Shown piece after piece: positions 9,920 through 62,199 of a DNA stretch of 64,000 bases (positions are counted from its first letter, which is position 1; every line of letters begins with the position of its first letter). The stretch is from an uncultured Lachnospiraceae bacterium (GTDB lineage Bacteria; Bacillota; Clostridia; Lachnospirales; Lachnospiraceae). The notes under the pieces were generated by a model. That model ran no database searches, was not told the DNA's origin, and saw nothing but the letters and a program-made list of their open reading frames with translations. Both the position numbers and the translations under genes were made by a program. The stretch is from NCBI GenBank assembly GCA_947566705.1, contig CANOLA010000003.1, positions 32,179-96,178 on the forward strand. The letters run 5' to 3'.

Positions 9920-10648
9920 ATGGCATTAACAAATGAAGATTTACAGGCAATTGCAGGTCTTATTCAGCCAGTCAGGGATGATATCCATACCCTGAAAAAA
10001 GACCAGGATAAAATGCGGACAGATCTGGAAAACAAAATCGAACAGACAGAGCAGAATCTGAGGGCTGAATTTAAAACCCGGATTGCACAGACAGAACAAA
10101 CGCTCAGAAGCGAAATCCAGCTCTCCGAACAGAATCTCAGAGATGAATTTTCGTCTCAGATTGTACAGTCTGAACAGAATCTCAGAAATGAATTTTCATC
10201 CCAGATTGTACAGTCTGAACAGAATCTCAGAAATGAATTTTCATCCCAGATTGCACAGTCCGAACAGAATCTCAAAAATGAATTTTCGTTTCAGATTACA
10301 CAGTCTGAACAGAATCTCAAAAATGAATTTTCGTCCCAGATTGCACAGTCTGAACAGAATCTCAGGAATGAATTTTCGTCCCAGATTGCACAGTCCGAAC
10401 AGAATCTCAGAAATGAATTTACGACTCAGATTACACAGTCTGAGCAAACGATCAAAACTGAACTCAAAACCCAGATTACACAGTCCGAACAAAAGCTCAG
10501 GGACGAATTCAAACTGCAAATCCAACAGTCTGAAAAGAAACTGAAGAAAACCATACGCTCAAGTGAAAATCTGATACTGGAAGAAGTATCAAGGGTACAC
10601 CACTTTCTGGAAAACCACATAACTGACAAAACAAGGCATACTGCATAG
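9920..10648 (+). CDS. Tandem-repeat coiled-coil protein, 15-residue repeats (copy 1)
   Basis: 242 residues starting [14 protein letters not shown], with AAAGGAGG 9 bp before the ATG. Layout: a conserved head (1-36), about twelve coiled-coil units of mostly 15 residues (37-212), and a conserved tail (212-242) ending DKTRHTA. Units at residues 78-167 are nearly identical (consensus SSQIAQSEQNLRNEF). No signal peptide or membrane segment, so it should be cytoplasmic. Its paralogue at 61633 has the same head and tail but 11-residue repeats. The LTNEDLQAI head occurs in many unnamed clostridial proteins (from memory). Function unknown. Confidence 0.8.
   Translation: MALTNEDLQAIAGLIQPVRDDIHTLKKDQDKMRTDLENKIEQTEQNLRAEFKTRIAQTEQTLRSEIQLSEQNLRDEFSSQIVQSEQNLRNEFSSQIVQSEQNLRNEFSSQIAQSEQNLKNEFSFQITQSEQNLKNEFSSQIAQSEQNLRNEFSSQIAQSEQNLRNEFTTQITQSEQTIKTELKTQITQSEQKLRDEFKLQIQQSEKKLKKTIRSSENLILEEVSRVHHFLENHITDKTRHTA
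10028..10555 (+). repeat. Intragenic tandem repeat, 45-bp unit
   Basis: Twelve in-frame units coding a 15-residue coiled-coil period; one unit (after residue 66) is only 11 residues. The six units at 10151-10420 differ by only a few bases each, so the array could gain or lose units by slippage or recombination without breaking the frame. Confidence 0.85.
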
Positions 10649-10683
10649 AACGCATATCCGCATAAAAAATATGTATAACCTCC

Positions 10684-10713
10684 TTGACTATTCAGCCTGC
10701 AGTTCTCTATAAT
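10684..10713 (+). promoter_or_regulatory. Promoter of aroC
   Basis: TTGACT (10684-10689) and TATAAT (10708-10713) with an 18-bp spacer, 38 bp before the aroC ATG. GGGAGG stands just upstream of the start codon. Confidence 0.65.
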
Positions 10714-10751
10714 GGAATATACGATATTACACAGCAGTCTGGGAGGATATT

Positions 10752-11858
10752 ATGGCAGCAGGATCTACATACGGAACATTATTCAAAATAACAACCTGGG
10801 GGGAATCCCATGGCAAAGGCATCGGCGTAGTTGTGGATGGCTGTCCTGCGGGACTTGCTCTCTGTGAAGACGACATCCAGTCATTTCTGAACCGGAGAAA
10901 ACCCGGACAGTCAAAGTTTACCACTGCAAGAAACGAAACCGACACCGTGGAAATTTTATCAGGTGTATTTGAACAGAAAACAATAGGAACACCGATTTCA
11001 ATGATGGTATGGAATAAAGACCAGCATTCAGCTGATTATGCGCAGATTGCTTCCTGCTACCGTCCGGGACATGCTGACTTTTGTTTTGATGAAAAATACG
11101 GAATCCGGGATTACCGGGGCGGCGGACGTTCCTCCGGCCGGGAAACCATCGGCCGTGTGGCAGGCGGTGCTGTTGCTGTAAAAATATTAGAGCAGATGGG
11201 AATTACTTTTTTAACCTATTCAAAATCCATTGGTCCTATTTCTATCGACATGAAACGCTTTGATCCATCAGAAATATCAAAAAATGCACTGTATATGCCT
11301 GATGCAGAAGCTGCTGCTGCTGCATCTGAATATCTTACAAAATGCATGGAAGAACAGAATTCAGCAGGCGGTATATGTGAATGCGTGGTAAACGGTCTTC
11401 CGGCCGGACTAGGTGATCCGGTATTTGAAAAAATAGATGCAAATCTGGCAAAAGCGGTTCTTTCCATTGGCGCTGTAAAAGGTTTTGAAATCGGGGACGG
11501 CTTTGCCCTCTCCCGTGCAACCGGACTTACCAGCAACGATGCATTCTGCATAAAGAACGGGAGAATATCTAAAAAAACAAACCATTCCGGCGGCGTGCTG
11601 GGCGGTATGACAGACCGTGCCCCACTGGTTTTCCGTGCTGCATTTAAACCAACCCCTTCCATCTCAGCCCCGCAGGAATCGGTTCAGGCATCGGGGGAGG
11701 AAATTTCCCTGAGCGTCCGGGGACGACATGACCCAATTATCGTCCCGCGTGCCGTGGTTGTTATAGAAACAATGGCAGCTGTTACGATAGCAGACGCGCT
11801 GCTTGCTAATATGACTTCGCGGCTTGACAGAATTATCGACTTTTACCAGAATATATAA
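10752..11858 (+). CDS. aroC: Chorismate synthase
   Basis: 368 residues, full length. It makes chorismate from EPSP with reduced FMN, the last step of the shikimate pathway. Signatures: GESHGKGIGVVVDGCPAGL near the start, GRSSGRETIGRVAGGAVA in the middle, and RHDPIIVPRAVVVIETMAA near the end. It has its own promoter and a terminator and stands alone on the plus strand between minus-strand units; no other aro gene is nearby. Confidence 0.97.
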   Translation: MAAGSTYGTLFKITTWGESHGKGIGVVVDGCPAGLALCEDDIQSFLNRRKPGQSKFTTARNETDTVEILSGVFEQKTIGTPISMMVWNKDQHSADYAQIASCYRPGHADFCFDEKYGIRDYRGGGRSSGRETIGRVAGGAVAVKILEQMGITFLTYSKSIGPISIDMKRFDPSEISKNALYMPDAEAAAAASEYLTKCMEEQNSAGGICECVVNGLPAGLGDPVFEKIDANLAKAVLSIGAVKGFEIGDGFALSRATGLTSNDAFCIKNGRISKKTNHSGGVLGGMTDRAPLVFRAAFKPTPSISAPQESVQASGEEISLSVRGRHDPIIVPRAVVVIETMAAVTIADALLANMTSRLDRIIDFYQNI

Positions 11859-11860
11859 TA

Positions 11861-11902
11861 AAAAAGCAGGTCCGAATGATATTTTTCAGACCTGCTTTTT
11901 TA
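11861..11902. terminator. Bidirectional terminator between aroC and the Ig-like protein gene
   Basis: A hairpin with 12-bp arms (11861-11872 with 11889-11900), bounded by A-run on the left and T-run on the right, so it can end transcription of aroC (plus) and of the convergent minus-strand gene. Confidence 0.85.
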
Positions 11903-11911
11903 TATTCTTAA

Positions 11912-14440
11912 TTATGCATTTTTTAATGTTCTTCCAACTGCCACCTCACGGCTCATGACAATCTTTTTCCCGTCTGCCAGGGTAATTTCTGTCTGTACTG
12001 TCACAGTTTTTATATTGATGGACTCCCCTGTGGCAAGCTTATAGCTGCCGCCTTCCTTTTCTGCTCCGGTAATCTCACAGGAAACAATTTCTCCTGTTAC
12101 ACCGGTCACTTCCAGACAGTCTTTTACTAAATCAAGTGCTGTTTTGCAGGAAACGCCGGCTGTCGTGTGCTTTACCACAATTGCAGGAGCCGGCTGGCTG
12201 TCCGTAATCTGTAAGCCCGCAGTTATTGTCACAGTGCCGCTGGCGGAATCCGGTCTGTAATATTTCAGTTCGATGCTGTAATTACCCGTCTGTGCCTTTG
12301 TGCATTTATTTCCGTCAAGCTTTAAGGCTGTCAGTACCAGCTGGTTATTTGCCGTCACACTGGCAGTACCTGCAGCTGTCAGGTCGTTGCCGTAAGAAAT
12401 GCCATCCTTTGTAACCTTTGCCGAACTAATCACTACATAATTATAAAACACGCCGCCCCGGTATTCTGCCAGACGTACCGTAACAGTTTTTCCGGAAACC
12501 AGTTCCGTCTCCTTCATTCCGTCAGTTACCGCAAGATCCAGTACCGGTCTGTCAATCTGTACCTGATAGCTTACTGCTCCGTTTGCCGGCGGTGTCTTTA
12601 CCACAACAACAAAATTTCCCGTCACCTTTCTGGTTCCCATCATAACCGTCAGCGCATACTGGTAAACTCCCTCTGCCCTGTATGCGGCATCGATTACAAT
12701 CTGGTGGCCTGCTGCATCATAAGAAACCATGTTTGTCTTATAGGTACTGTTATCCGTAAACTGTGCTGTTTCATTTACCAGCGGAAAATCTTCCCCGTAC
12801 TGGTCCACACCATGCACCTGAATATAGCCCTTATAGCCTGACGCCCCACTGTTTGACATTTCTATCTGTGTCTTGTCAAACTTAAGCCCCTGCAGGTAAG
12901 GTGTCTCCACAACCGTAACATCATAGGAATAAGTATATTCCTGCTTCGCATAAACAGCTGTCACAATAATCGAAACAGTTCCCGGTTTTATCGCAGTAAC
13001 CTTTGCAGTTCCGCTGGTCTGGTTATTGACAAGCAGGGTATCCGGGTCCGAGGATTCAAACTGGATGCTCTCATATTTAATTTCACTTAAGTCCTCATCC
13101 CTTGCACAAAAATGGGCAAAATAATTCTGTCCAGCTGCTGCCTTACGGTTATCCTTATACCCGGCTGCATCATAATCCGGCGTTTTTTCCGAATCTGTCA
13201 GAGTAAAGCTGGTGTTGTTTGAGGTATTTGCCGACACACAGGTAAATGTTCCGGTTGCGGTAAGCAGAATTCCCTCCTCCTGATCTGCATAGGTCATGGT
13301 AATCGTTCCGGTATCCCCGACTTTCTGCATGTAAATCTTTCCGTCCTTCGTCAGGTATCCGTTCGTAATTTTATAATCGTCATTAATGACGGCCTCTTTC
13401 TTGCATGCTGCTTTTACGTCAATTCCGTTACTGTCGTAAAGTGCATAGGAAACCGCCGTCTCCTTATTTACGGTTATTTCTTTTGTTAAAATTTCAAGCC
13501 TTTCCGGTTTTCCGATATGTGCTGTAAAACGGAAGGTCATCTGGCCGTCCGTTACTGTATACTGCGCAGCGTCCTTTAACAGCGACTGTGTTGTCAGCGT
13601 CACTTCTTTCCCATCCATTGAAAAATCCATGGATTTAACGACAATTGACGCACCCACTGCGTTTTTAATACTGAAATCACTCTGCTTTACAAGTTCTTTT
13701 GCACTGCTGGAATAATTCACAACAATTTTATCTGCCGCTGTCTGTTTCACGCCAAGCATGGTATTGGAAACTGTTACAATCCGGCTTGCAGATTTAATAA
13801 TTTTACTTCCGATTTTTGCCTGCACGGCAATCGTGTAATTTCCTTCTTCCTTCGGGGTAAACGCGCCTTTTTTTGTCATGGAGGAGAGAATTTCTCCATC
13901 CTCATCCATTGCAATCCATTCATTCACAGAGGTTGCATTGGCTGGTGTGACCTTATACTGAAACTGATAGGTTTTTCCAATCAGAAACTTTCCATTTACT
14001 GCTGCATTATTAACAATTTCCACCTTTGTCGGACGGATTTTGATTTTGGCAGCCGGAGTTTTTAATGTATACTGCAGCTTACCTGCCTTGGAATATATTT
14101 TGGCAGTCAGGATTACGGTCTTGTTTTTTGCCGCGGAAGCTCCCTTTGTTTTTACGGTAAGCTTATTTGTAACGGAGGTTTTGGTAACCTTTGTGCTTTT
14201 TTTATTCAGCTTTACGTAATTTTTTCCGGTTCCGGAAACGCTCCATTTTACGTTCTGGCCCTTTTTCAGCTTTTGAACTGTGTATATATAAACTCCCTTA
14301 TTTGAGTCATTCTCATACAGACTCGTATATTTTTTCGCAAATTTCGGTTTTGCCGCCGCTTCCGCCGGAACCGGAACTGCGGTGACAACCAGTGCAAAAA
14401 AACATAAGACTGCAACTGCTTTTTTTAATTTCTGATACAT
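11912..14440 (-). CDS. Large secreted protein with repeated Ig-like domains
   Basis: 842 residues. Signal peptide at 1-29 (lysines, a hydrophobic run AVLCFFALVVTAV, then cleavage near PAEAAA). The first about 140 residues are lysine-rich beta sequence. Later parts resemble Ig-like folds; the segment ending GTAKVTAIKPGTVSIIVTAV near residues 455-490 is typical of BIG2 domains. No catalytic motif, LPxTG sorting signal or C-terminal membrane segment was seen, so it may be released or held to the wall by the basic N-terminal part. It stands as a single gene ending at the shared terminator. Role unknown; adhesion or matrix binding is a guess. Confidence 0.8.
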   Translation of the reverse strand: MYQKLKKAVAVLCFFALVVTAVPVPAEAAAKPKFAKKYTSLYENDSNKGVYIYTVQKLKKGQNVKWSVSGTGKNYVKLNKKSTKVTKTSVTNKLTVKTKGASAAKNKTVILTAKIYSKAGKLQYTLKTPAAKIKIRPTKVEIVNNAAVNGKFLIGKTYQFQYKVTPANATSVNEWIAMDEDGEILSSMTKKGAFTPKEEGNYTIAVQAKIGSKIIKSASRIVTVSNTMLGVKQTAADKIVVNYSSSAKELVKQSDFSIKNAVGASIVVKSMDFSMDGKEVTLTTQSLLKDAAQYTVTDGQMTFRFTAHIGKPERLEILTKEITVNKETAVSYALYDSNGIDVKAACKKEAVINDDYKITNGYLTKDGKIYMQKVGDTGTITMTYADQEEGILLTATGTFTCVSANTSNNTSFTLTDSEKTPDYDAAGYKDNRKAAAGQNYFAHFCARDEDLSEIKYESIQFESSDPDTLLVNNQTSGTAKVTAIKPGTVSIIVTAVYAKQEYTYSYDVTVVETPYLQGLKFDKTQIEMSNSGASGYKGYIQVHGVDQYGEDFPLVNETAQFTDNSTYKTNMVSYDAAGHQIVIDAAYRAEGVYQYALTVMMGTRKVTGNFVVVVKTPPANGAVSYQVQIDRPVLDLAVTDGMKETELVSGKTVTVRLAEYRGGVFYNYVVISSAKVTKDGISYGNDLTAAGTASVTANNQLVLTALKLDGNKCTKAQTGNYSIELKYYRPDSASGTVTITAGLQITDSQPAPAIVVKHTTAGVSCKTALDLVKDCLEVTGVTGEIVSCEITGAEKEGGSYKLATGESINIKTVTVQTEITLADGKKIVMSREVAVGRTLKNA

Positions 14441-14475
14441 GTTTATCCTTCCTTTCTAAAATATATTAATTTTTC

Positions 14476-14515
14476 AAGGTGTAAATCCCTGATACTTCAA
14501 CAGAATTTACACCTT
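14476..14515 (-). terminator. Hairpin directly after trhP
   Basis: An 11-bp perfect inverted repeat (14476-14486 with 14505-14515) begins at the trhP stop codon. On the minus strand the following bases are T/A-rich but lack a clean T-run, so termination is likely rather than certain. Confidence 0.5.
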
Positions 14516-15751
14516 TTATTCACTTTCCTGCCTGCGCAGAATATCATATTCCTCAAGCGGCTCCCCGACATCCACATAAAAAACCTGCTTTGGATGCGGA
14601 CAGGATTCCATCCCATTACCTTCCTCATCTTTCATGGCGCGCACAGTTACTTTTACATTCTGTCCGTCCGGCTTCATAATTTCGATTTCCTCGCCCACGG
14701 AAAATTTATTGCGCTGCTCAATACGGTACATATCCTGTTCATCTTTTTTTCCCACAGTTCCCAGATAGGTGTATCCCCTTTCGTAGGTATTGCTGTCATA
14801 AATCTGTGTTTCTTCCGACGGTTTACCATAAAAAAATCCGGTCGTAAACTGCCGGTAGGTACAGCTTTTAATCTGCTCCATATACCATGGCATATTCTGT
14901 TCATACTTCTGCGGGGATTCCAGGTAATCATCAATTGCCTTACGGTAAGTCCTTGCAACCGTTGCCACATAAAGCGCCGTTTTCATGCGCCCTTCTATCT
15001 TAAAGCTGTCTATTCCCGCCTCCATCAGGTCAGGAATGTGTTCAATCATGCATAGATCCTTTGAATTAAAAATATAGGTTCCGCGTTCATTTTCATAAAC
15101 CGGGAAGTATTCCCCCGGTCTTGTTTCCTCCATCACGGAATATTTCCAGCGGCATGGATGCGTACACTCTCCCTGGTTGGCATCCCTGCCCGTAAAATAA
15201 TTGGACAGAAGACAGCGCCCGGAATAGGAAATGCACATGGCACCGTGTACAAAAGTTTCTATCTGCATATCTTCAGGAATCTGCGCCCGGATTTCCTTAA
15301 TTTCTGCAAGGGAAAGCTCCCTTGCCGTTACCACACGGGTCGCCCCCAGCTTCTGCCAGAACCGGAATGTTCCGTAATTGGTATTATTTGCCTGCGTGCT
15401 GATATGGCGGTCTATGTCGCAGACCTCTCCTGCAATTGCAAACACTGCCGGATCAGCAATAATCAGTCCATCCGGACGCTCCGGATTCATTTCCCCAAGC
15501 TCTTTCAGATATTCCCGTACTCCCGCAAGGTCTTCATTGTGCGCTAAGATATTAGCTGTCACATATACCTTAACACCATGTTCATGGGCAAAAATGATTC
15601 CTTCTTCCATTTCCTCCATGGAAAAATTTTTTGCCTTCGCCCGCAGTCCAAATGCATCACCGCCAATATACACCGCATCCGCACCATAGATTACGGCGAT
15701 TTTTAAAACTTCCAGACTGCCTGCCGGAACAAGTAACTCTTTTTTTCTCAT
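14516..15751 (-). CDS. trhP: U32-family tRNA hydroxylation protein (TrhP type)
   Basis: 411 residues. The start MRKKELLVPAGSLEVLKIAVIYGADAVYIGG is the U32 signature; cysteines sit in GECTHPCRWKYSV and nearby, as expected for the iron-sulfur cluster of this family. Formerly called collagenase-like peptidases, TrhP proteins are now known to make 5-hydroxyuridine at tRNA position 34 from prephenate-dependent chemistry. The start overlaps the stop of the GH32 gene (ATGA), and trmR, which methylates the product of TrhP, lies one gene further upstream. Only one U32 gene is present here, whereas Bacillus subtilis has two (yrrN, yrrO). Confidence 0.87.
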   Translation of the reverse strand: MRKKELLVPAGSLEVLKIAVIYGADAVYIGGDAFGLRAKAKNFSMEEMEEGIIFAHEHGVKVYVTANILAHNEDLAGVREYLKELGEMNPERPDGLIIADPAVFAIAGEVCDIDRHISTQANNTNYGTFRFWQKLGATRVVTARELSLAEIKEIRAQIPEDMQIETFVHGAMCISYSGRCLLSNYFTGRDANQGECTHPCRWKYSVMEETRPGEYFPVYENERGTYIFNSKDLCMIEHIPDLMEAGIDSFKIEGRMKTALYVATVARTYRKAIDDYLESPQKYEQNMPWYMEQIKSCTYRQFTTGFFYGKPSEETQIYDSNTYERGYTYLGTVGKKDEQDMYRIEQRNKFSVGEEIEIMKPDGQNVKVTVRAMKDEEGNGMESCPHPKQVFYVDVGEPLEEYDILRRQESE

Positions 15752-17112
15752 GAAATCTGCTCCTTCCCCCGGTATTTCTGAAGAATATTTCCTTCAATGC
15801 TGTCTCCAAGCGAATACACCACATTACTGATGACGTATTCTCCTCCGTTTACAAAAATTTCAACCAGGTTCGGCTCCATAAAAATTTCCAGACTGCATTC
15901 CCCGGAAAGCTCCGGTGTTTTACACTTCATATGCAGATTTTTACATGACTGGAAATCATCTTTTTTATCGTAATTCCCCGTCACGGCACTTCTGTCCGTC
16001 CAAAGAACGCTGTTTTCAAGCCATATCTTATAACCTCCGATATTCAGGGATTCACCTTCCTGCAGCCTGGCCTGCAGGCGGCAGACGCCTTCCCTGCCGA
16101 TACTGTTCTTTTCCACGCATATATCAGAAAAATATTTTATAACCTCCGGATGCACCTTAAAATAAATATGCCCGTCTTTCTGCTCCACGACGCGCGGCAG
16201 GGACATCATGCCCGACCATGCACCGTTTTCCCCGTTTTCCACAGGCACCGGCATCCGCATCCACCCGATTAACACACGCCTTCCCATGGCATCCAGACAG
16301 GTCTGCGGTGCATATAAATCCCGTCCGTAATCCACGTATGAAAACTTATCCTCCGGTGTAAAATCACAGGTGTCCGGATTAAATGATGCCAGACGGCAGA
16401 CGGCATGGCTGTTATATCCTTCTGTGTCCGGTACAATACCAACCGGCGAACATACCAAAACATACTTATCCCCAAGTGCAAATAAATCCGGGCATTCCAG
16501 TATGGAGCCAAAATATTTATCCTGACAGCTGTTTGCAAATTCCCAGTCATGTCCATTGCTGCTTTTATAGAAAAGAAGTTTTCCATTTTCATTTTTATAA
16601 GTACTGCCAAGCACCATAAAATAGCAGTCCCCTTCTTTCCATACCTTCGGGTCCCTTGTATTGAACGGATGGGCAGTTTCCTCATCATGGCAAACCGGTA
16701 TAATCTGTTTTTTGTTTTTCCAGTTATCAAAATGAACACCATCAGGAGATACCACAAGAGCCTGGCTTGCATAAAACAGGTCATCCACTGCCTTATGGAT
16801 ATTTTCTTTTTCACACTCCAGATAACGGACTGCGGTATAGTACAGATACAGTTTGCCGTCTTTTTCTATTGCACTGCCCGAAAATACACCGTTTCTGTCA
16901 TAATCCTTCGTTGGAAACAGCGCAATCCCCAGATGCTCCCAGTGTACCAGGTCATCACTTACGGCATGACCCCAGTGCATGGTTCCCCACACCGGTGCAT
17001 AGGGAAAATGCTGGTAAAATAAGTGGTATTTTCCCTGATAATAAATAAATCCGTTCGGATCATTCATCCAGTTTCCCGGAGCTTTCACATGCAGTGTCTG
17101 ATATTTTCCCAT
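15748..17112 (-). CDS. GH32 beta-fructosidase (sucrose-6-phosphate hydrolase / invertase)
   Basis: 454 residues without a signal peptide, so cytoplasmic. Catalytic residues are in place: D18 in WMNDPNG (nucleophile), D154 in NTRDPKVW, E206 in LECPDLF (acid/base). The C-terminal about 130 residues match the usual beta-sandwich domain. It cleaves terminal fructose from sucrose, sucrose-6-phosphate or short fructans. It sits between trmR (3 bp gap) and trhP (4 bp overlap), so translation of all three seems coupled. No sugar transporter, fructokinase or LacI regulator is nearby, which is unusual for this family. Confidence 0.9.
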   Translation of the reverse strand: MGKYQTLHVKAPGNWMNDPNGFIYYQGKYHLFYQHFPYAPVWGTMHWGHAVSDDLVHWEHLGIALFPTKDYDRNGVFSGSAIEKDGKLYLYYTAVRYLECEKENIHKAVDDLFYASQALVVSPDGVHFDNWKNKKQIIPVCHDEETAHPFNTRDPKVWKEGDCYFMVLGSTYKNENGKLLFYKSSNGHDWEFANSCQDKYFGSILECPDLFALGDKYVLVCSPVGIVPDTEGYNSHAVCRLASFNPDTCDFTPEDKFSYVDYGRDLYAPQTCLDAMGRRVLIGWMRMPVPVENGENGAWSGMMSLPRVVEQKDGHIYFKVHPEVIKYFSDICVEKNSIGREGVCRLQARLQEGESLNIGGYKIWLENSVLWTDRSAVTGNYDKKDDFQSCKNLHMKCKTPELSGECSLEIFMEPNLVEIFVNGGEYVISNVVYSLGDSIEGNILQKYRGKEQIS

Positions 17113-17115
17113 ACT

Positions 17116-17766
17116 TTACCCTTCCTTAACCTTCTCACTTACTGTAATGCCGTCACCGACCGGAAGTACTGCCGTCACAAGATCACTCCTGTGCGTCAGC
17201 TCGTACAGATATTCCCTCATCCGCCTGTGAATGGTACGGTTTCTCCTCGGCACTACAAAGTGGGACTCCAGTATATCCCCGTCCTGCAGTACATTATCAG
17301 ATACCAGCGTACCACCGGTTTTTAAAAGTCTTAGAACATCCGGCAGAAATTTAATGTACTGCCCCTTGGCTGCATCCATAAAGATAAAATCAAATGGTTC
17401 CTCAAGCGTCTTTAAGATTTCTGTCGCCTCCCCTTCAAGAAGCGTAATCTGTTTTTCCCTGCCTGCACGCCTGAAATTTTCCTGTGCAATGGGAATCCGT
17501 TTTTCATAATTTTCGATTGTCACAATCTCACACTGCCCTGGCGTATATTCAGCCATCAGAAGAGCTGAAAAGCCTACCGCTGTCCCCACCTCAAGAATAC
17601 GTTCTGGGCGTTTCATAGCAAGAAGCAGTTTCAAAAAGCCCTGCATTTCCTTCCGGATTACCGGAACCATGGAATCCAGGGCTTCTCGTTCGATTTCATC
17701 TAAAATGCCGGTATTCCCAGTATCAAGGGAATTAATATATGTGACCAGGCGTTCATTTAATATCAT
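17116..17766 (-). CDS. trmR: tRNA 5-hydroxyuridine methyltransferase
   Basis: 216 residues from the ATG at 17766 (GGAGGAG just upstream); a longer frame to 17820 would read through the small upstream ORF. The SAM-binding loop is ILEVGTAVGFSALL (about 57-70), followed by FDFIFMDAAKGQY and TLVSDNVLQDG, the class of small O-methyltransferases that includes YrrM. TrmR converts 5-hydroxyuridine-34 to 5-methoxyuridine. Its ATG overlaps the stop of the 46-codon ORF and it is two genes upstream of trhP, which makes its substrate. Confidence 0.85.
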   Translation of the reverse strand: MILNERLVTYINSLDTGNTGILDEIEREALDSMVPVIRKEMQGFLKLLLAMKRPERILEVGTAVGFSALLMAEYTPGQCEIVTIENYEKRIPIAQENFRRAGREKQITLLEGEATEILKTLEEPFDFIFMDAAKGQYIKFLPDVLRLLKTGGTLVSDNVLQDGDILESHFVVPRRNRTIHRRMREYLYELTHRSDLVTAVLPVGDGITVSEKVKEG

Positions 17767-17903: not shown

Positions 17904-17913
17904 AGAACTACTC

Positions 17914-19876: not shown

Positions 19877-19900
19877 AATTATGCTTTTACCCCTTAACTG

Positions 19901-39386: not shown

Positions 39387-39599
39387 ATGCTATTTGAAAA
39401 TATAAGAAATCTACGGGAAGACAATGACAAAAAACAGCAGGAACTTGCCGATTACCTGAATGTAAAGCAAACAACCTATTCCAAATATGAACTTGGAAAA
39501 ATCAATATTCCGATTGAAGTGTTTTTAAAACTGGCTGATTATTACGATGTATCAGTTGATTATCTGCTGGGACGCACAAAACACAAAAAGGGAAAATAG
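39387..39599 (+). CDS. XRE-family DNA-binding protein (first of a tandem pair)
   Basis: 70 residues, almost entirely a helix-turn-helix domain: FENIRNLREDNDKKQQELAD, then KQTTYSKYELGKINIPIEVFLKLADYYDVSVDYLLGRT. No effector domain, so it probably acts as a small repressor. About 80% identical to the next gene. Confidence 0.85.
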   Translation: MLFENIRNLREDNDKKQQELADYLNVKQTTYSKYELGKINIPIEVFLKLADYYDVSVDYLLGRTKHKKGK

Positions 39600-39609
39600 T
39601 ATTGTAGAT

Positions 39610-39816
39610 ATGAAATTTGAAAATATTAAAAACCTGCGAAAAGCAAACAAAAAAAACCAGCAGGAGCTGGCTGATTATCTGAATATCAAACAGACAACTT
39701 ATTCCAAATACGAACTCGGCAAAATAAATATTCCGATTGGAGTATTTTTAAAACTGGCTGATTATTATAATGTATCGGTTGACTATCTACTGGGACGCGA
39801 CAACCAGCATTGCTGA
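39610..39816 (+). CDS. XRE-family DNA-binding protein (second of a tandem pair)
   Basis: 68 residues, a near copy of the gene before it (FENIKNLRKANKKNQQELAD; YSKYELGKINIPIGVFLKLADYYNVSVDYLLGRD). It starts 10 bp after the first stop; its ribosome site is weak, so translation may depend on coupling. A recent gene duplication; the two could form heterodimers or compete for one operator. Confidence 0.8.
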   Translation: MKFENIKNLRKANKKNQQELADYLNIKQTTYSKYELGKINIPIGVFLKLADYYNVSVDYLLGRDNQHC

Positions 39817-52559: not shown

Positions 52560-52576
52560 ATTTATCCCCCTGTATC

Positions 52577-52615
52577 ATAATATGTAATATCTCTTTTGGA
52601 GATATTACATATTAT
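52577..52615. promoter_or_regulatory. Perfect 17-bp inverted repeat upstream of udp
   Basis: 17-bp arms (52577-52593 and 52599-52615) around a 5-base loop, AT-rich, between the spoIIP stop (11 bp away) and the udp start (17 bp away). No T-run follows on the minus strand, so it is a candidate operator or leader hairpin for the salvage operon rather than a plain terminator. Confidence 0.6.
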
Positions 52616-52625
52616 ACTATTATTT

Positions 52626-53831: not shown

Positions 53832-53851
53832 ACCATCACCACCTCAAAGCA

Positions 53852-54886: not shown

Positions 54887-54913
54887 TTTCCCCGATTTTT
54901 TTCAGATTATGTA

Positions 54914-54942
54914 TTGACAGACTGCCTGGCTTGTCATATTAT
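54914..54942 (+). promoter_or_regulatory. Promoter of rpsT
   Basis: Full TTGACA (54914-54919), 17-bp spacer, TATTAT (54937-54942). Strong match, as expected for a ribosomal protein gene. Confidence 0.8.
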
Positions 54943-55026
54943 ATTCTAGTATGTTTGCGATGAAGCGTCCGTGTCTGTTTCACCGCAGGAACAAGATTAC
55001 AATTATTTAACAGGGAGGTGTACAGA

Positions 55027-55290
55027 TTGGCTAACATAAAATCCGCTAAGAAAAGAGTGCTTATTACAGCAACAAGGACAGCAAGAAACAAATCCATCCG
55101 TTCTGAAGTAAAAACTTCAATCAAAAAGGTGGAGGCAGCTGTCGCTGGTAAGGATAAAGCAGCTGCACAGACAGCACTTACAAATGCAACCAAGGTTATT
55201 GAAAAAGCCTGCTCCAAGGGCGTTTACCACAAAAATAATGCAGCACGCAAGATTTCTCGCCTGGCAAAGCTTGTAAATAATGTTGCTTAA
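55027..55290 (+). CDS. rpsT: 30S ribosomal protein S20
   Basis: 87 residues starting at TTG (55027): (M)ANIKSAKKRVLITATRTARN, the normal S20 start, 8 bp after GGGAGG. A GTG nine bases earlier is in frame but lies inside the ribosome-site spacing. E. coli rpsT also uses a weak UUG start that takes part in feedback control. Binds 16S rRNA. Divergent from gpr as in Bacillus. Confidence 0.96.
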   Translation: MANIKSAKKRVLITATRTARNKSIRSEVKTSIKKVEAAVAGKDKAAAQTALTNATKVIEKACSKGVYHKNNAARKISRLAKLVNNVA

Positions 55291-55307
55291 TTTCATATCA
55301 TAAAAAC

Positions 55308-55339
55308 ACAGTCCAGTACCGTCATGCTGGACTGTTTTT
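55308..55339 (+). terminator. Terminator of rpsT
   Basis: ACAGTCCAG (55308-55316) pairs with CTGGACTGT (55327-55335), then a run of T on the plus strand and a run of A on the other side. Confidence 0.85.
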
Positions 55340-55386
55340 ATTTTCTAAACAAAGTAAGAATTTCCCAGTCTTTTCAGCTGTTATTA

Positions 55387-55800
55387 CTAGGTCCAGTCTG
55401 GACTGATATCCTTTGTTGTCCCAAAGCTTTTCAGTATTAACTCATCACCTTTACGCTCAAAAACCACGTCAAACTCTGTGTTTACATCTGTCCCATAATA
55501 TGTAAGTATTATTCTGTCCGGTATATCAAGGCATATATACGCAACTGCATAATTCTCATAAAACTTGTCGTCCTTATCATATTTCTGTGCGATACAGTCC
55601 ATTTTGCAGAGGTTTTCAGCTGCAAATACAATCAGTGGCTTTAATTCCTCAAACCTGTCCTCCTGTCCTTCCAGATCAACAGCTATCTCATCACACCATC
55701 TGGTTTCACGGTAAATTACGACCTCCGTTTCATTTGACAGCTTTAGTTCGTCTGCATCTGCAATCAGATAAGCTTTTTCGTTGTAGCGTTCATGTATCAT
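55387..55800 (-). CDS. Hypothetical small acidic protein
   Basis: 137 residues, GGGAGAAAGAGG upstream of the ATG. Beta-rich, no signal peptide or membrane segment; C-terminal VFERKGDELILKSFGTTKDI resembles domains found in DUF2262-like and some immunity proteins (from memory, weak). Single gene between rpsT and the GGDEF gene. Function unknown. Confidence 0.65.
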   Translation of the reverse strand: MIHERYNEKAYLIADADELKLSNETEVVIYRETRWCDEIAVDLEGQEDRFEELKPLIVFAAENLCKMDCIAQKYDKDDKFYENYAVAYICLDIPDRIILTYYGTDVNTEFDVVFERKGDELILKSFGTTKDISPDWT

Positions 55801-55956
55801 ATACCTCTTTCTCCCTGTATGCTTTTTCTTTCTGTTTTCTGCTGTACCATCCCTGATATCCTGCTTATGCTGTACCCTGATTATATAAAAAAATATTTAT
55901 ATTTACAATAAGTTTCATATTCAGCTTTTCGCTGATGGCCGGGCAGTGTGCAATTC

Positions 55957-55984
55957 TTGACTTTTCCCCCTGTTATGCTAAAAT
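55957..55984 (+). promoter_or_regulatory. Promoter of the GGDEF gene
   Basis: TTGACT (55957-55962), 16-bp spacer, TAAAAT (55979-55984), 49 bp before the start codon. Confidence 0.6.
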
Positions 55985-56032
55985 ATTTATAATATCTTTC
56001 AAATTTAGCATTCTGGTATTCACAGGGGAGGT

Positions 56033-57775
56033 ATGTTTATGGATCTAAAATTTCATTCTGCTGCATCCGGCAAAAAAAATTTTTTTATTGCAGTCTGTAA
56101 TACACTTTACATAATTGCACTTATCCTGACTTTTATTCTGCTTTTCGTCTCCATTTTCACTGATAAAAGTGTTCCGAAAACGGACGCAGAAGCCTTTTCT
56201 GAAAAATGGTACTATGACAGCAGACTTACAAGACGTGCGGACTTAAAACACCCAAACCTCCATCCCGGATATTCTGCAGACAGTCCCATCGATTATTATG
56301 CGTCAGTTCCCTCCGGAATTTCAAACAACTGCGGCATCATGTTTAAAGCCAAAAACTGTGCTGTCCGTGTTTATGTCGGAAACGAAACTGCACCGCGTGC
56401 TTCCTACCAGTTATACGGTGCCCTCTATGGAAAAAGCGCCGGTACAGACTGGGTGGAGTTTTCTCTGCAGGCAGATGATGCCGGAAAACTGATTCACATT
56501 GAATTTATCCCTTATTATAATGATTCAAGCTGCTATCTGGGCTCATTTACCATAGGAAATTTCCGTGATGTGATTACGGGTACCATCTCAGGACAGATTT
56601 CCGGTGCAGTGATAGGCATACTTATGTTCTCAGTAGGTATCATTCTGCTCGTGATATTCCTTGCCCTAAAAAAGACCGCCGGTGTCAATGAAATGGACCT
56701 TCTTTATCTGGGATTTACTGCAATCGCAGTGGCCGGCTGGACATTCTCAGAAACCAAACTCATGCAGTTTCTGACCCATAATACCGGAGCCATCCACAAC
56801 TTTAACTGCATGATGTTAATGTTAATTCCGCTCCCGGTTCTGATGCTTTTCCAGAAAGCTGCCAGCAGAAAACAACGGATTCTGATGAGTACCGTGGCAG
56901 GAATTACTGTGTTAAATATAATTGTTTCCTGCCTGCTGCACTTTATGGGAATTTCGGATTTCCACGAAAACCTGAAGCTGACACATATTACAATTATCCT
57001 TGCCTCTGCAGCAATTCTTTATTCCAATATCTCCTACTGTCTTCATGAAAAACAGACGGAACGCAGGGACAAGGTTGCTGCCATTGGATTAATCATTGTT
57101 GTAATCTTTGGCATTGTTGATGTAATCCGCTACAAAGGCGGGGGGACAAACGACAGCAGCCGGTTTACGAGAATTGCAATTTTTCTTTATATCCTTGCCC
57201 TTGGTATCACAAGTCTGGAACATGCAATGCTTATGGTAAAAAAAGGCATGACCGCCGACCTTGTGAGCCGTCTTGCCTATGAAGACGGACTCACCGGACT
57301 GGGAAACCGCACGGCTTACAAGGAACTTCTGTCCTCCATTGCGGAAAATAACCGTACACACTGTGTATTTATGTTTGATATCAATAATCTGAAATACGTC
57401 AATGACAATATCGGCCACGCTGCCGGAGACGTTCTGATTACCTCTGCTGCCGGTATGATACGGAAGCATTTTGAATCCATTGGCAGGTGTTACCGGATTG
57501 GCGGCGACGAATTTATCTGTATATCAGACCAGCCGGAAAACACGTCTGAAATACTTTCGGCTTTTTTCAGGGAAGTTGACCGGTATAACCAGGAACACAG
57601 ATCCGAATTTCCTCTGGTGATTGCCGCAGGTGCCGCCCGCTGCGAAAAGAATGAAGACATTTACCATGCCGTGGAAACCGCAGATAAACGCATGTATGAA
57701 TGCAAGGCAAACCTGAAGATTAAGTATCCTCTTAAAAAACTTCTGGAAACAGCAGGTTTGCAGACAGAATCGTAA
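56033..57775 (+). CDS. Membrane-bound diguanylate cyclase (GGDEF domain)
   Basis: 580 residues. One membrane span (about 17-43), an outside beta domain (45-185), then about seven further spans (190-405), a layout like 7TM-DISM receptors. The cytoplasmic GGDEF domain (about 410-570) has the full motif RIGGDEF near residue 489 and the substrate part of NNLKYVNDNIGHAAGD. The inhibitory RxxD site five residues before the motif is absent. It should make cyclic di-GMP in response to an outside signal. Confidence 0.88.
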   Translation: MFMDLKFHSAASGKKNFFIAVCNTLYIIALILTFILLFVSIFTDKSVPKTDAEAFSEKWYYDSRLTRRADLKHPNLHPGYSADSPIDYYASVPSGISNNCGIMFKAKNCAVRVYVGNETAPRASYQLYGALYGKSAGTDWVEFSLQADDAGKLIHIEFIPYYNDSSCYLGSFTIGNFRDVITGTISGQISGAVIGILMFSVGIILLVIFLALKKTAGVNEMDLLYLGFTAIAVAGWTFSETKLMQFLTHNTGAIHNFNCMMLMLIPLPVLMLFQKAASRKQRILMSTVAGITVLNIIVSCLLHFMGISDFHENLKLTHITIILASAAILYSNISYCLHEKQTERRDKVAAIGLIIVVIFGIVDVIRYKGGGTNDSSRFTRIAIFLYILALGITSLEHAMLMVKKGMTADLVSRLAYEDGLTGLGNRTAYKELLSSIAENNRTHCVFMFDINNLKYVNDNIGHAAGDVLITSAAGMIRKHFESIGRCYRIGGDEFICISDQPENTSEILSAFFREVDRYNQEHRSEFPLVIAAGAARCEKNEDIYHAVETADKRMYECKANLKIKYPLKKLLETAGLQTES

Positions 57776-57800
57776 AAACGGTCAGCAGATATCCTTTTTC

Positions 57801-57825
57801 CTGCAGCGGTAAAATGCCGCTGCAG
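57801..57825. other. Hairpin between the GGDEF gene and the paralogue pair
   Basis: CTGCAGCGG (57801-57809) pairs with CCGCTGCAG (57817-57825). It sits 26 bp past the GGDEF stop, without a clear T-run; a possible weak terminator. Confidence 0.5.
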
Positions 57826-57940
57826 TCCCTGCTTCCGTACAAGCCAAATACCAAAACCTCCCCTGCTGTTATTTTTCCTGCCCTGCGTCACATCTTCCGT
57901 CTTAACAGTATCCCACAGGAATCAAAAATTTTACAATTAT

Positions 57941-59452
57941 TTAAAACCCGAAATATTTCTTCCTCAGTTTTCGGTTTGCCATTACGCTTAAATATCTCTT
58001 TACTGCCATCCGTCCCTGGTTATGGGTTACATTTCTGCTTGTAATCTCCCACCATGGCTTCATTTTTTCAATAATTGATCCTGATGCTTTATTTTCCTCC
58101 ACCAGATTTTTAAACAGTCTGACCGCGGCAGCATACCGTCTGTCTGTACCATTCTGTAAAAACTCGTAAAACATGTCAGTGAATGCATATATTCTTTTAT
58201 AATATTTATCAGCTTCTTCAAGCAGTAAAAGCATTTCCTCCTGAAAACCTCCCTGTTTTTCTTTCGGTATCATTTCCAGCAACTGATGATACTGCCCTGC
58301 CAGATTTTTCAGCCACGTATCCATTCCTTCTGACAGATTTACTTCTCCTGTTTCATCCCACCAGAACGTGCGGTCATCGTCTGAAAAACGGTAATCCGGC
58401 TGGCCTTCCAGCTCTTTGGGTGTATCCCAGAACAAAAGCGGATCATCATAGGCAAAAAATTCCGCAGTGGTAACCGGAGGTACAGGCTTTTCTATTTCCC
58501 GTTTTCGCATTTCGGCAAGTTCACTGGAAACATACTGCCGCATAATTTCATCCCTGTAAATATCCGTGTATAATTCCTTCCACACTGTCCAGAAATCATA
58601 TTTTCTGATTTCTGCTGTCAGATATACCAGCACGCGCGCCGGCAGTTCAAGTGACATTTGTGCAATTTCAAAAAGTCCGTCCTCCTGAATTTTTTCGCGC
58701 GAGCATCTGTTTAACTTTACCAGCTCCCAGATTTTCTCCGTCCGCTTGTTTTCGTTATTTCTGTCTTCTGTCAGATACTGTTCCAGCAATTTTTTACACC
58801 TGTATACGGTTTTTGGATAGGAACCCTCCTCATGTTCTTTCTCCTGCAATGAATCCGTTCCCTCCATTACATAACAGATATCTGAAAACTCTGTTCCACC
58901 CATTGCACGATACATATGAAATGGTATGGTTTCCATCAGCGGGTAATCCTCCGCTGTCTGGTATCCGGGATTTGACCGTTCAAGAAAATAATGTTCAAAG
59001 TGCTCCCATAGCCGGAACCGTTTTTTCATGGAAAAAGCCTTACCCAGAACATGGTTAATCCAGCCGGTATATATTTCCGCGCCAATAACCTCTCCGTCAA
59101 TCTGTGAAAATCCTGCTCCACTGTCATAGAGTTCATAAAGAAAATGAACAGCTGTCACCACATCACAAAACTCCCTTCCGCCAAGTTTTCCGGAAAAGAA
59201 TCCTCCGCTGTCTGCATTATAACATGCATCCTCCCAAATATTATCTTCAAAATAATTATAACAAAAAACTGCTTTGCCATCCTGACCGACTTCAATCGGT
59301 TTTAACAGTATAATTTCATGTCCGCAGATAACCGCTTTTTCAAACTGCATCATCCCGCCGTAGTTTAAAATCTTTAAAATGTCTGTGGTAAACTCCTCTC
59401 TTTTATCCTCTGGAATAAGCATTTTTCCGGTGTATGTCCCAAACGTACCCAT
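57941..59452 (-). CDS. Unnamed paralogue A (503 residues)
   Basis: Start at MGTFGTYTGKMLIPEDKREEF with GGAGGG upstream; 19 extra residues are possible but less likely. No membrane segment or known enzyme motif. The first about 75 residues (GKxxIPEDKREEFxxxILKI ... FxYxxFE) and the last about 40 (ending KYFGF) match the smaller gene upstream (59482-60324). The middle is longer and holds proline- and tryptophan-rich stretches (DDPLLFWDTPKELEGQPDYRF). Function unknown. Confidence 0.7.
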   Translation of the reverse strand: MGTFGTYTGKMLIPEDKREEFTTDILKILNYGGMMQFEKAVICGHEIILLKPIEVGQDGKAVFCYNYFEDNIWEDACYNADSGGFFSGKLGGREFCDVVTAVHFLYELYDSGAGFSQIDGEVIGAEIYTGWINHVLGKAFSMKKRFRLWEHFEHYFLERSNPGYQTAEDYPLMETIPFHMYRAMGGTEFSDICYVMEGTDSLQEKEHEEGSYPKTVYRCKKLLEQYLTEDRNNENKRTEKIWELVKLNRCSREKIQEDGLFEIAQMSLELPARVLVYLTAEIRKYDFWTVWKELYTDIYRDEIMRQYVSSELAEMRKREIEKPVPPVTTAEFFAYDDPLLFWDTPKELEGQPDYRFSDDDRTFWWDETGEVNLSEGMDTWLKNLAGQYHQLLEMIPKEKQGGFQEEMLLLLEEADKYYKRIYAFTDMFYEFLQNGTDRRYAAAVRLFKNLVEENKASGSIIEKMKPWWEITSRNVTHNQGRMAVKRYLSVMANRKLRKKYFGF

Positions 59453-59481
59453 GCTGTTATCCCTCCTTTCTAACGCAGACA

Positions 59482-60324
59482 TCAAAATCCAAGTATCTGT
59501 TTTCTGCATTCATGGTTTACAAGCATGGAAGCATATCCGCCCAGAATAATGCTGTCTCTCTCGCTGTAATGCTTTCTGGTAACCCATTCTCTCACCTGCC
59601 ATGCGGTCAGCTCCGGAAAATATTCCACATCCCGGTCTGTAAGTTCCCGGAATACCAGCAGGGCTTTTTTGTACCGGATATCTTTTTTATGCACTGTAAA
59701 TTCCCTCACAAGACTCTCATCCACATAGCGGCATCCCCAGATTCTGTCAAGATCCAGAAGAATATCCGCCAGATACTCTTCTATGCAGATCATGGCTGCC
59801 TCTGCTTCATCTGCCTTTTGATATTTCTGTTTCCATTTCTCCAGGTTTTCTTTCATGCCGTCTGACAGCAAAAGGCTTCCGCAGTCACGAAATTCCAGAA
59901 ACTCATCCTCATTTTCACGGTGAATTAACCGGAAAAACCATGGGTTTTCTGTCTCGCAGTCCCTGTCAGTACATTTACTGTAAAAATCTCTGGAACCAGC
60001 CTCCTGCATCAGCATCAGAACCAGCTGCATCACCATCCCGAATTCATCACTTCCGCAGGTATTAACAGAAAGTTCACAAGTCTTCATATTATAAAAAGAC
60101 ACTGGTCTTTTGCGCCGTTCAAAAATGGAATAATCGAATCTGACTATTCCGTAATCATCGGGTCCGGGCGTCCCTGCAACGGTTACTTTTTTTCCTGCCA
60201 GTTCAGCTTCTTTTCGTTTACGTATCCCGCATAACCAGAAAATCTTTAATATATAATCATTAAACTCGGTTCTTTTTTCCTCCGGAATATCTGCTTTTCC
60301 TTCCATCCGATACTTTTGTTCCAT
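59482..60324 (-). CDS. Unnamed paralogue B (280 residues)
   Basis: Starts MEQKYRMEGKADIPEEKRTEF and ends with CRKQILGF, the same frame ends as paralogue A, from which it differs mainly by a shorter middle. Soluble, charged, no catalytic motif recognised. It is 29 bp upstream of A, so the two are co-transcribed. The pair is preceded by a palindrome-bearing promoter and an XRE gene. Confidence 0.7.
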   Translation of the reverse strand: MEQKYRMEGKADIPEEKRTEFNDYILKIFWLCGIRKRKEAELAGKKVTVAGTPGPDDYGIVRFDYSIFERRKRPVSFYNMKTCELSVNTCGSDEFGMVMQLVLMLMQEAGSRDFYSKCTDRDCETENPWFFRLIHRENEDEFLEFRDCGSLLLSDGMKENLEKWKQKYQKADEAEAAMICIEEYLADILLDLDRIWGCRYVDESLVREFTVHKKDIRYKKALLVFRELTDRDVEYFPELTAWQVREWVTRKHYSERDSIILGGYASMLVNHECRKQILGF

Positions 60325-60403
60325 TTCCTTTTACCAATCCTTACGCATTTATGAACATGGTGGACAGCCCCACTCCAGTTCCAGGGCTGTCTGTATTGTG
60401 ATT

Positions 60404-60449
60404 ATTTTAAAGGAATGACTTTCGGTTGTCATTGTACTTGTAGTACAAT
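60404..60449 (-). promoter_or_regulatory. Promoter with palindromic operator before the paralogue pair
   Basis: Minus-strand ATGACA (60427-60432), 17-bp spacer, TAAAAT (60404-60409). ATTGTAC-TTGTA-GTACAAT (60431-60449), a perfect 7-bp inverted repeat, touches the -35 box and starts 1 bp past the XRE stop region. A hairpin (60363-60370 with 60384-60391) follows in the leader. Confidence 0.55.
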
Positions 60450-60450
60450 A

Positions 60451-60753
60451 TCATGCTGTCTTTCCCAGAACCCTGCAATATGCGGTCAGTCTGGTATAAA
60501 ACAGTCTTCCCCCGGCGCTTCTGTGATTTGGTCTGTTCCCAACCATCATTGCATCAACAGGCACCTGAAAAAGCTCCGATAACGCATACAGATGGTCTAT
60601 TGTGGGCATGCTGCTTCCATTCAGCCAGTGGTAAATACTTTGTATGCTGGATAAATTTAAATATTTTTGTACATCTTTCACTGTTATGCCCCGCCAGTCC
60701 ATAAGCTGACGCAGGTACTTTCCGGTTGCTTTCATATTAATTTCTGGATACAT
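60451..60753 (-). CDS. XRE-family regulator
   Basis: 100 residues, AGGAGG before the ATG. Helix-turn-helix at about 7-70: KATGKYLRQLMDWRGITVKD and SIQSIYHWLNGSSMPTIDHLYALSELFQVPVDAMM. The 30-residue tail is basic. Lies directly upstream of the palindrome and the paralogue pair, which it probably controls. Confidence 0.85.
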   Translation of the reverse strand: MYPEINMKATGKYLRQLMDWRGITVKDVQKYLNLSSIQSIYHWLNGSSMPTIDHLYALSELFQVPVDAMMVGNRPNHRSAGGRLFYTRLTAYCRVLGKTA

Positions 60754-60949
60754 CAGTGTTCCTCCTGTAAATACATAATATATTTCTTTCGGTATTATAA
60801 CACATTTACACTTATAGCATCATCCAAATACAAAAAGACGTATGGTTCAAACTGCTGTTCCATACGCCTTTCCAGTGTTATACCAGTATTAAATTTTTCT
60901 GTTGCCGGTTCTTTTCTTTAATAAAACTTGTTTCACCGTTTATTCCGGT

Positions 60950-61315
60950 TCATTCTTTATTCCATCCTGCCTCCCTGTCAATATCATACTGTGTCTGCTC
61001 ACTTACTTCATGAATAGTTTCCAGCCGGTTATCCAGAGCTTCCAGTGTAATTAAATCTCCATTCTGGTAAATGGAAATCTGTGCTCCCGCTTTACATAAT
61101 TCCTCCGTCATATCACGAAAGCTTTGTTTTCTGTCGATACCGTTTATATCTTCCAGCACATCGTAATATTCCAAATCAAATCCTGTCACAAAATCATCTG
61201 CCTCAATTTTCTGCTTAATGGCACCCACAGACAGGGAACTGTCAAAACCCCTGATGATTTTAATATACTTTGCCAGAGAATTGTCTTTTTTAATTTTTAA
61301 CTGGATGAGATCCAT
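60950..61315 (-). CDS. Hypothetical protein (121 residues)
   Basis: GGAGG precedes the ATG. Soluble, beta-alpha pattern, acidic (SLSVGAIKQKIEADDFVTGFD, AGAQISIYQNGD). The layout of a helix pair followed by a short strand set is compatible with ribosomal-L7/L12-like or BofC-like small folds, but I recognise no family. Separated from the XRE gene by 196 bp in which I see no clear site. Confidence 0.6.
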   Translation of the reverse strand: MDLIQLKIKKDNSLAKYIKIIRGFDSSLSVGAIKQKIEADDFVTGFDLEYYDVLEDINGIDRKQSFRDMTEELCKAGAQISIYQNGDLITLEALDNRLETIHEVSEQTQYDIDREAGWNKE

Positions 61316-61520
61316 ATATACCTCCGTTAAGTCTTCATTTTTTAATTGTACAATTTCTTTCTTTTAAAGCACTAAAATTATAACACAGCTTACTGGCTGT
61401 ATACAATTTTTATTTTGTATAATCTTCTTTTCAGCTGTATTTTCCGCACCCGCCCATGGCATGGAACTGCTGCAGGTCGGCCCGTCTGACCACTGAAATA
61501 TGAAAACTGGTAAATATGGC

Positions 61521-61579
61521 CTATAGACAGAGAGGGACTGGTATGGTATGTTTGCTTTGTAACTATTTTTGGCCTATAG
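61521..61579 (+). promoter_or_regulatory. Upstream element shared by the two coiled-coil repeat genes (copy 2)
   Basis: CTATAGACAG (61521-61530) and CCTATAG (61573-61579), matching 9813-9822 and 9864-9870. GGTAAATA precedes both copies. The gap 61316-61520 upstream is AT-rich with no other recognised element. Confidence 0.5.
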
Positions 61580-61632
61580 TTACATATCCTATTTCAAATT
61601 CCTATTTCACTCAATTCAAAGGAGGCTTTCTC

Positions 61633-62199
61633 ATGGCATTAACAAATGAAGATTTACAAGCAATCGCAGGGCTTTTGCAGCCTATAAAAGATGACGTACA
61701 TACCCTGAAAAAAGAGCAGGTCATAATGCGTAAAGAACTGGAAGCAAAAATTGAACATACAGAGCAAACCCTGAGAGATGATTTCCAGATACAGATTCAA
61801 AGTGTCAGGACTGATCTGCAGGAGCAGATTCAGACTGTCCGCACCGATTTGCAGGAGCAGATTCAGACTGTCCGCACCGATTTGCAGGAGCAGATTCAGA
61901 CTGTCCGCACCGATTTGCAGGAACAGATTCAGACTGTCCGCACCGATTTGCAGGAACAGATTCAGACTGTCCGCATCGATTTGCAGGAACAGATTCAGAC
62001 TGTCCGTACCGATTTGCAGGAACAGATTCAGCAAACCGAACAGAAACTCAGAAAAGAAATCCATGTCCAGGCACAAAAGACCAAACAGTATATAAAAAAG
62101 GAAATCCGGTCAAGCGAAAATCTGGTGCTGGAAGAAGTTTCACGGGTACACCACATTTTGGAAAAACATATTAATGATGAGACAAGACATACTGCATAA
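61633..62199 (+). CDS. Tandem-repeat coiled-coil protein, 11-residue repeats (copy 2)
   Basis: 188 residues starting [20 protein letters not shown], with the AAAGGAGG site at the same distance as in copy 1; the frame opens earlier at 61516 without a site. Head (1-51) and tail (158-188, ending DETRHTA) are close to those of the gene at 9920. Residues 52-128 are seven units of [11 protein letters not shown], an 11-residue (hendecad) coiled-coil period. No signal peptide or membrane span. Function unknown. Confidence 0.8.
61786..62016 (+). repeat. Intragenic tandem repeat, 33-bp unit
   Basis: Seven in-frame 33-bp units, several of them identical, encoding the 11-residue period. A further degraded unit follows. 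Contrast the 45-bp period of the paralogue. Confidence 0.88.

Follow-up and report, generated by a model that had tools for sequence, protein, structure and literature searches.

A modular family of probable coiled-coil spacer rods with conserved ends and repeat cores of different period in Lachnospiraceae

The Apolipoprotein A1/A4/E domain is built of 11-residue helical repeats, and the Bdr proteins of Borrelia associate with the inner membrane by a hydrophobic segment. The coiled-coil literature (PMC4786415) gives hendecads 11/3 = 3.67 and pentadecads 15/4 = 3.75 residues per turn and derives them from the heptad by one or two stutters of 4 residues. A description of Bdr (PMC10016077) places these proteins at the inner membrane, mentions one bdr locus with its own promoter and reports the function of Bdr as undiscovered. 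Against this background, two genes, A and B, are described from an uncultured Lachnospiraceae bacterium (assembly GCA_947566705.1, contig CANOLA010000003.1, positions 32,179 to 96,178). The whole stretch of 64,000 nucleotides, read on the forward strand, is called the window, and its assembly comprises 3.41 Mb in 160 contigs and is 84% complete. With a probability of about 0.6, A and B belong to a modular family of soluble coiled-coil spacer rods with conserved ends, unnamed in the libraries searched.

9920..10648, + strand: gene A, 242-aa coiled-coil protein with conserved head and tail (open reading frame, ORF, translated)
61633..62199, + strand: gene B, 188-aa coiled-coil protein with head and tail as in gene A (ORF translated)
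10127..10500, + strand: 45-bp (15-residue) tandem array of gene A, about 8.3 copies (Tandem Repeats Finder and unit table)
61780..62031, + strand: 33-bp (11-residue) tandem array of gene B, 7.6 copies (Tandem Repeats Finder and unit table)

Both genes translate at these coordinates without internal stops. A mechanical ORF list offers longer starts at 9851 (gene A) and 61516 (gene B); 9920 and 61633 were preferred because a AAAGGAGG site supports them. The original prediction, made by a reader of the sequence, was that A and B have head, tail, ribosome site and upstream motifs in common while their cores consist of 45-bp and 33-bp units, and all of these features were recovered. Identity between A and B is 83% in DNA and 82% in protein over the first 28 codons, and 81% and 84% over the last 32, the stop codon counted. 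Both genes have the identical ribosome-site stretch AAAGGAGGCTTTCTCAT, and upstream of each lie two CTATAG sites with a spacing of 52 bp (A) or 53 bp (B). The predicted common motif near the C-terminus, IRSSENL[IV]LEEVSRVHH, is present in both proteins; this 17-residue segment, a putative binding region, recurs in one of the tail types of the family. Tandem Repeats Finder returned the periods 45 and 33, with a second row for gene A at period 45 (7.0 copies, 10127-10443). The cores are not pure. When unit steps are counted between anchors, defined as a hydrophobic residue preceding Arg/Lys, one 11-residue step lies ahead of the 15-residue array of gene A, while in gene B a 15-mer-like segment precedes the 11-residue array and 15-residue steps follow it.

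The genome also contains a third paralog (C). It is split between two contigs: C72 ends with its head and C105 begins with its tail. An exact overlap of 55 bases between these ends gives a 155-aa protein whose rod runs in anchor steps of 15, 15, 11, 15 and 15. The ends of A, B and C share 78-83% of their DNA. Codon differences in the tails are mostly synonymous (synonymous/nonsynonymous 11/5 for A-B, 14/5 for A-C and 12/5 for B-C), and therefore selection on the tail protein sequence is indicated. Three more members, carrying a second type of tail (T2), lie on contigs C8, C44 and C49, which brings the genome to at least six family members.

The two periods are related. The A-B protein alignment contains gaps, mostly of 4 residues, scattered through the arrays, and hydrophobic residues are spaced 4-4-3 in the 11-mer and 4-4-7 in the 15-mer. 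As judged from the sequences, the 15-mer is an 11-mer plus one 4-residue helical turn, and by the anchor method each of the three paralogs contains steps of both lengths. The 15-mer is tentatively favoured as the older unit, because the third paralog consists mostly of 15-residue steps and 15-mer-like stretches flank the array of gene B. Within the array of gene B, seven units average 92% DNA identity (95.5% between neighbours); the corresponding values are 80% (85%) for nine units of gene A and 90% (91.5%) for its seven inner units. Since the units are 90-92% identical, against 78-83% for the paralog ends, the B array and the inner A array are more alike internally than the paralogs are to each other, as if they had been amplified or homogenised after the split. 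The original prediction is modified here in that the two periods are not unrelated.

As for helix geometry, the hydrophobic period of the rods is 3.74 residues per turn in A and 3.67 in B. Both exceed 3.63, the value taken to mark right-handed coiled coils, as had been anticipated for the two repeat lengths; the first 40 residues give 3.57-3.58, and the heptad member L021 gives 3.49. These rod values agree with the 11/3 and 15/4 of right-handed hendecad and pentadecad coiled coils. What differs from such coiled coils in general is that both step lengths appear in one set of paralogs, each amplified as a DNA tandem array. No cysteine is found in A, B or C, and no hydrophobic segment, the maximal 19-residue mean hydropathy being 0.38, 0.39 and 0.25, respectively. 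A single helix is predicted for gene B only: the AlphaFold model, made from a two-row alignment, is one helix over residues 5-187 (mean pLDDT 94.4, pTM 0.42).

The family extends to other genomes. Three profiles from which the rods were left out, for the tail of A and B (T1, 32 positions), their head (H1, 29) and the tail T2 (56), were run at E <= 0.001 against 397 genomes of the same taxonomic family, the source genome being inside each count. T1 matched 22 genomes, H1 20 and T2 68, the last number including five genomes that supplied profile rows (G321, G092, G327, G398 and G181). In a phylum-wide sample, T2 matched 3 of 398 genomes, namely the source genome and two weak cases. With the whole of protein B as the query, 6 of 60 relatives matched, the source genome being one of the six; G023 has the head and G028 the tail, and the only match read among the remaining three (G006) is not a member. 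Readable loci yielded 78 distinct proteins, A and B included, some of them fragments and with start codons set by a rule that is wrong in some cases. Heads and tails are combined modularly among them: H1T1 in 4, H1T2 in 8, H2T1 in 17 and H2T2 in 19, the head or tail of the other 30 being unassigned by simple rules. By simple self-comparison, the rods of the longer members have periods of 7, 11, 14, 15, 18, 21 and 28.

Coiled coils resemble one another easily, and the members could be unrelated helical proteins that converged on this fold. Whole-protein matches in Pfam, NCBIfam, PADLOC and plasmids (including Thermus and Borrelia) do look coiled-coil-driven. The strongest library match, of gene B to phrog_9415 (unknown function; E 7.5e-15), covers residues 18-98, mostly rod. 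Gene B also matches phrog_21734 (unknown function; 1.9e-10), and gene A matches phrog_30599 (called a transcriptional regulator; 7e-7) over residues 162-199, inside the rod. The PHROG matches of whole A and B look rod-driven because the heads alone found no match there and the tails alone reached E 0.017 or worse; a kinship of gene B with phrog_9415 may exist. Convergence is nevertheless contradicted for most members and can be regarded as very improbable: the rod-free profiles find heads and tails in genomes without profile rows, T1 at E 2e-14 (G399) and T2 at 1e-26 (G409), and searches by promoter alone, described below, arrive at the same kind of protein.

No known family accounts for these proteins in the libraries searched. 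Curated Pfam and NCBIfam cut-offs were reached by none of the matches listed for A and B (for B, the best 25 of 29 in Pfam), nor by any for four other members, and seven T2 tails gave a best Pfam E of 0.01. The best Pfam E-value of gene B, 3.3e-8, belongs to the Apolipoprotein A1/A4/E domain (PF01442), at 33.9 bits against a curated cut-off of 90. A role in anti-phage defence was rejected, as A, B and two further members gave PADLOC matches no better than E 1.5e-4, to models such as ZorA, Leo, Lmu, PbeC and Jet, which were read as coiled-coil matches; the single locus found when the genome_contigs set was scanned with gene B was likewise dismissed as a chance coiled coil. A phage or plasmid protein was also discarded as an identity: in named phages, tblastn with gene B and with two further members found nothing, and these two members had no plasmid match either. 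Gene B, the one window gene searched in this way, matched plasmids of Thermus (11), Borrelia (8) and one Candidatus only. The Borrelia rows, which include Bdr records, show 26-36% identity confined to residues 18-143 of gene B, mostly rod, and miss both ends; they are not evidence of descent as far as the alignments go. Bdr proteins are multi-copy paralogs annotated as repetitive, encoded on cp32 prophage plasmids among others. They differ in their reported association with the inner membrane, whereas A, B and C have no hydrophobic segment (0.25-0.39 on the scale above). Literature searches, judged by title and the start of the abstract, returned no publication on the rod family or its promoter among the matches listed.

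Rod length changes while the ends stay fixed. In three pairs of members with collinear flanks, the proteins measure 99 and 113 aa (L031/L032; genomes G087 and G406), 156 and 135 aa (L025/L019; G074 and G399) and 248 and 199 aa (L155/L158; again G074 and G399), each pair within one genus. The differences of 14, 21 and 49 residues are multiples of 7, and the gaps fall within the rod. In two pairs lacking collinear flanks, the rod gap is 14 residues for L043/L044 and 112 for L147/L151, the latter from different genera; L020 and L041, two copies in one genome, are equal in length. A family of length-variable rods with conserved ends, as proposed by the original prediction, is supported by the third paralog, the relatives in other genomes and these whole-heptad differences, which together argue against a lone recent duplication with no further members.

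It was also suggested there that repeat number varies by slippage, and this could amount to adaptive length switching, with strains tuning a phenotype through the number of repeats. The near identity of adjacent DNA units (95.5% in B, 91.5% in inner A) and the whole-unit differences between related genomes fit such a scheme. Against it, the differences are seen only at species level, and duplicates on separate viral contigs are identical (L127/L128, L132/L133 and L134/L135), although these are short, with little or no array, and make a weak test. Adaptive switching is thus judged improbable.

Upstream of the coding sequences, the two genes share the following elements.

9816..9844, + strand: promoter-like element of gene A (locus L040), TAGACA-N17-TAGATT with TG extension, read from the sequence and laid out as the family promoter
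61524..61552, + strand: promoter-like element of gene B (locus L045), TAGACA-N17-TATGTT with TG extension, read from the sequence
9851..9874, + strand: leader of gene A, GTGGCTAT-N8-ATAGGCAC, an imperfect inverted repeat of operator-like or hairpin-like form; fold not better than shuffles
61559..61583, + strand: inverted repeat GTAACTAT-N9-ATAGTTAC in the leader of gene B; fold not better than shuffles

Many members are preceded by TAGACTTT-N12-TGNTATAMT or a looser form of it; the promoters of A and B have TAGACA but weaker -10 boxes. The pattern TAGAC-N14-16-TGnTAnnnT stands before 25 of the 73 members found by profile that have 120 bp or more of upstream sequence. Of 173 other ORFs in these loci 0 have it, and shuffled sets give 0.02 each; the comparison is in part circular, the motif having been derived from some of the same sequences, and the control ORFs may include operon-internal genes. 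Four of the 25 carriers belong to the source genome, namely the genes of C44 and C49 besides A and B. In 15 member-holding genomes, the strict pattern occurs at 25 places in 13 genomes (reversed pattern, 0). By eye, 19 of these places precede a member; 11 were known before, and 8 of the other 14 are new. In 230 evenly drawn genomes of the family, it occurs at 38 places in 31 genomes (reversed pattern, 2). Thirty of these places were read: 12 precede a member and 18 precede other genes or nothing clear. Five of the 12 had been read before, four are also T2 matches, L182 is a broken gene of L027, and L171 and L194 were found by the promoter alone. The short promoter motif is therefore enriched before members yet not exclusive to them. 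A strict family promoter is also present on contig C70 of the source genome (13763-13791, L093), with no family gene found behind it.

The leaders of the three paralogs also resemble one another. The inverted repeat of A and B recurs in C, and all three leaders fold into a similar 8-9 bp hairpin, which has one mismatch in A. No leader folds better than shuffles (z -0.21 to -0.56), so that an operator palindrome is as likely as a leader RNA. The pattern CTATAG-N44-50-CCTATAG occurs at 3 places in the 3.4-Mb assembly, each preceding one of the three paralogs; a reversed control pattern gave 11 matches, so chance matches are not rare and it is the placement that informs.

The promoter was also traced in the viral contigs of IMG/VR, which may be phages or over-called host DNA. 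The long form, TTGAYAATTNNATAGACTTT-N12-TGNTATA, occurs there in 16 stretches. Members follow 11 of these (8 distinct proteins, of which the profile scans missed 3). Behind the remaining five lie other small ORFs (46-63 aa), four being alike by eye. The short pattern gives at least 120 stretches and, as a way of finding members on these contigs, is swamped by chance matches: among those listed, a regular expression for the head finds a member behind 2 of 80 loci, both the same gene, and a third match to this expression (L254) proved unrelated. A second set of small proteins was noticed behind the same promoter (L227, L323, L324, L330 and L094; 54-63 aa), sharing by eye a similar QR-containing segment. 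One contig (L134) carries two members within about 2 kb, at 2875-3096 and 4617-4886, one with tail T1 and one with a T2-like tail. Ku-like and DNA-ligase-like genes, so named by eye, lie near members on L331 (9308-11026) and L251.

The surroundings of gene A, next to aroC, record its probable arrival.

9680..9736, no strand assigned: left copy of an imperfect direct repeat flanking gene A, like the pre-aroC segment of relatives (score reached by 0 of 500 shuffles)
10653..10706, no strand assigned: right copy of this direct repeat, upstream of aroC (same shuffle test)

aroC was found in 52 of 60 genomes of the same genus (E <= 1e-100), and 30 of the loci were readable, one being that of the window. 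At the 29 others, neither gene A nor its head or tail had a match within a flank of at most 1.5 kb. An amylase-like neighbour lies beside aroC in 10 of the 29; the fragmentary L106 was dropped, leaving nine, in which the gap from this gene to aroC is 62-524 bp, compared with 1045 bp in the window. Because these nine genomes have the two neighbours without gene A between them, gene A is most simply read as a gain in this lineage, on comparison of the loci. The flanking repeat of about 57 bp scores 41, while the shuffle maximum is 37; the stretches were picked after inspection. As a separate observation, L108 and L119, of the same genus, have longer and differing pre-aroC stretches (269 and 524 bp) that are inverted-repeat-like by eye.

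Such a gain, with the repeat around the gene, also fits mobile or selfish cassettes, in which a promoter and its gene would spread together while rod length drifts unselected and expression is kept. This is the principal rival, considered possible but on the unlikely side, and it is not mutually exclusive with the spacer-rod reading. The patchy distribution (T1 in 22 and T2 in 68 of 397 genomes) and the members on IMG/VR contigs speak for it as well. On the other hand, the flanking duplication at gene B is not significant (15 of 200 shuffles reach it), no element has been seen moving (the neighbours of B and C were not searched for transposases), two other members have no tblastn match in named phages or plasmids, and the tails keep their protein sequence, which points to selection, the heads being less clear.

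Elsewhere in the window, positions 39392-39803 hold a 223-bp tandem duplication (1.8 copies) that, by eye, apparently encodes a duplicated XRE-like helix-turn-helix segment.

The spacer-rod reading remains preferred. Each gene, under a promoter of its own, would apparently stand alone and encode a conserved head, a rod made of tandem helical repeats and a tail drawn from a few conserved types. The protein would form one long helix, most likely self-associating into a bundle, with the rod as a spacer that separates head and tail and the specific contacts presumably carried by these ends. Rods would change in length by whole repeat units, since tolerance would be limited to steps (for instance 7, 11 or 15 residues) that leave the hydrophobic stripe in register; the changes probably stem from near-identical DNA repeats that misalign. 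In this genome, units of 15 and 11 residues, one 4-residue turn apart, would have been amplified in two paralogs.

Several observations weigh against this reading. A single helix with pTM 0.42 from a two-row alignment is expected for many helical sequences, and the modelled head and tail of gene B continue the same helix rather than forming separate domains. Constraint is not clear in the heads, with synonymous/nonsynonymous codon counts of 5/5 for A-B, 3/9 for A-C and 9/6 for B-C. The promoter motif is not found in 48 of 73 members, some of which have misassigned start codons. Length variation was seen at the species level only, and two pairs of genomes supplied all three collinear gene pairs. 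Finally, gene A and two tail profiles found nothing convincing among solved structures (best E 0.22; gene B was not searched).

A broader proposal, tentative and unlikely at present, is that the rods and the second set of small helical proteins form one regulon spanning chromosomes and mobile elements through the conserved 39-bp promoter, TTGAYAATTNNATAGACTTT-N12-TGNTATA, the rods acting as length-tunable rulers or tethers under common control. More generally, these are recurrent genes without a name in the family libraries searched, whose promoter has led to further members. One architecture built with heptad, hendecad, pentadecad and longer repeats between fixed ends would offer a natural series for the rules that govern coiled-coil handedness and length.

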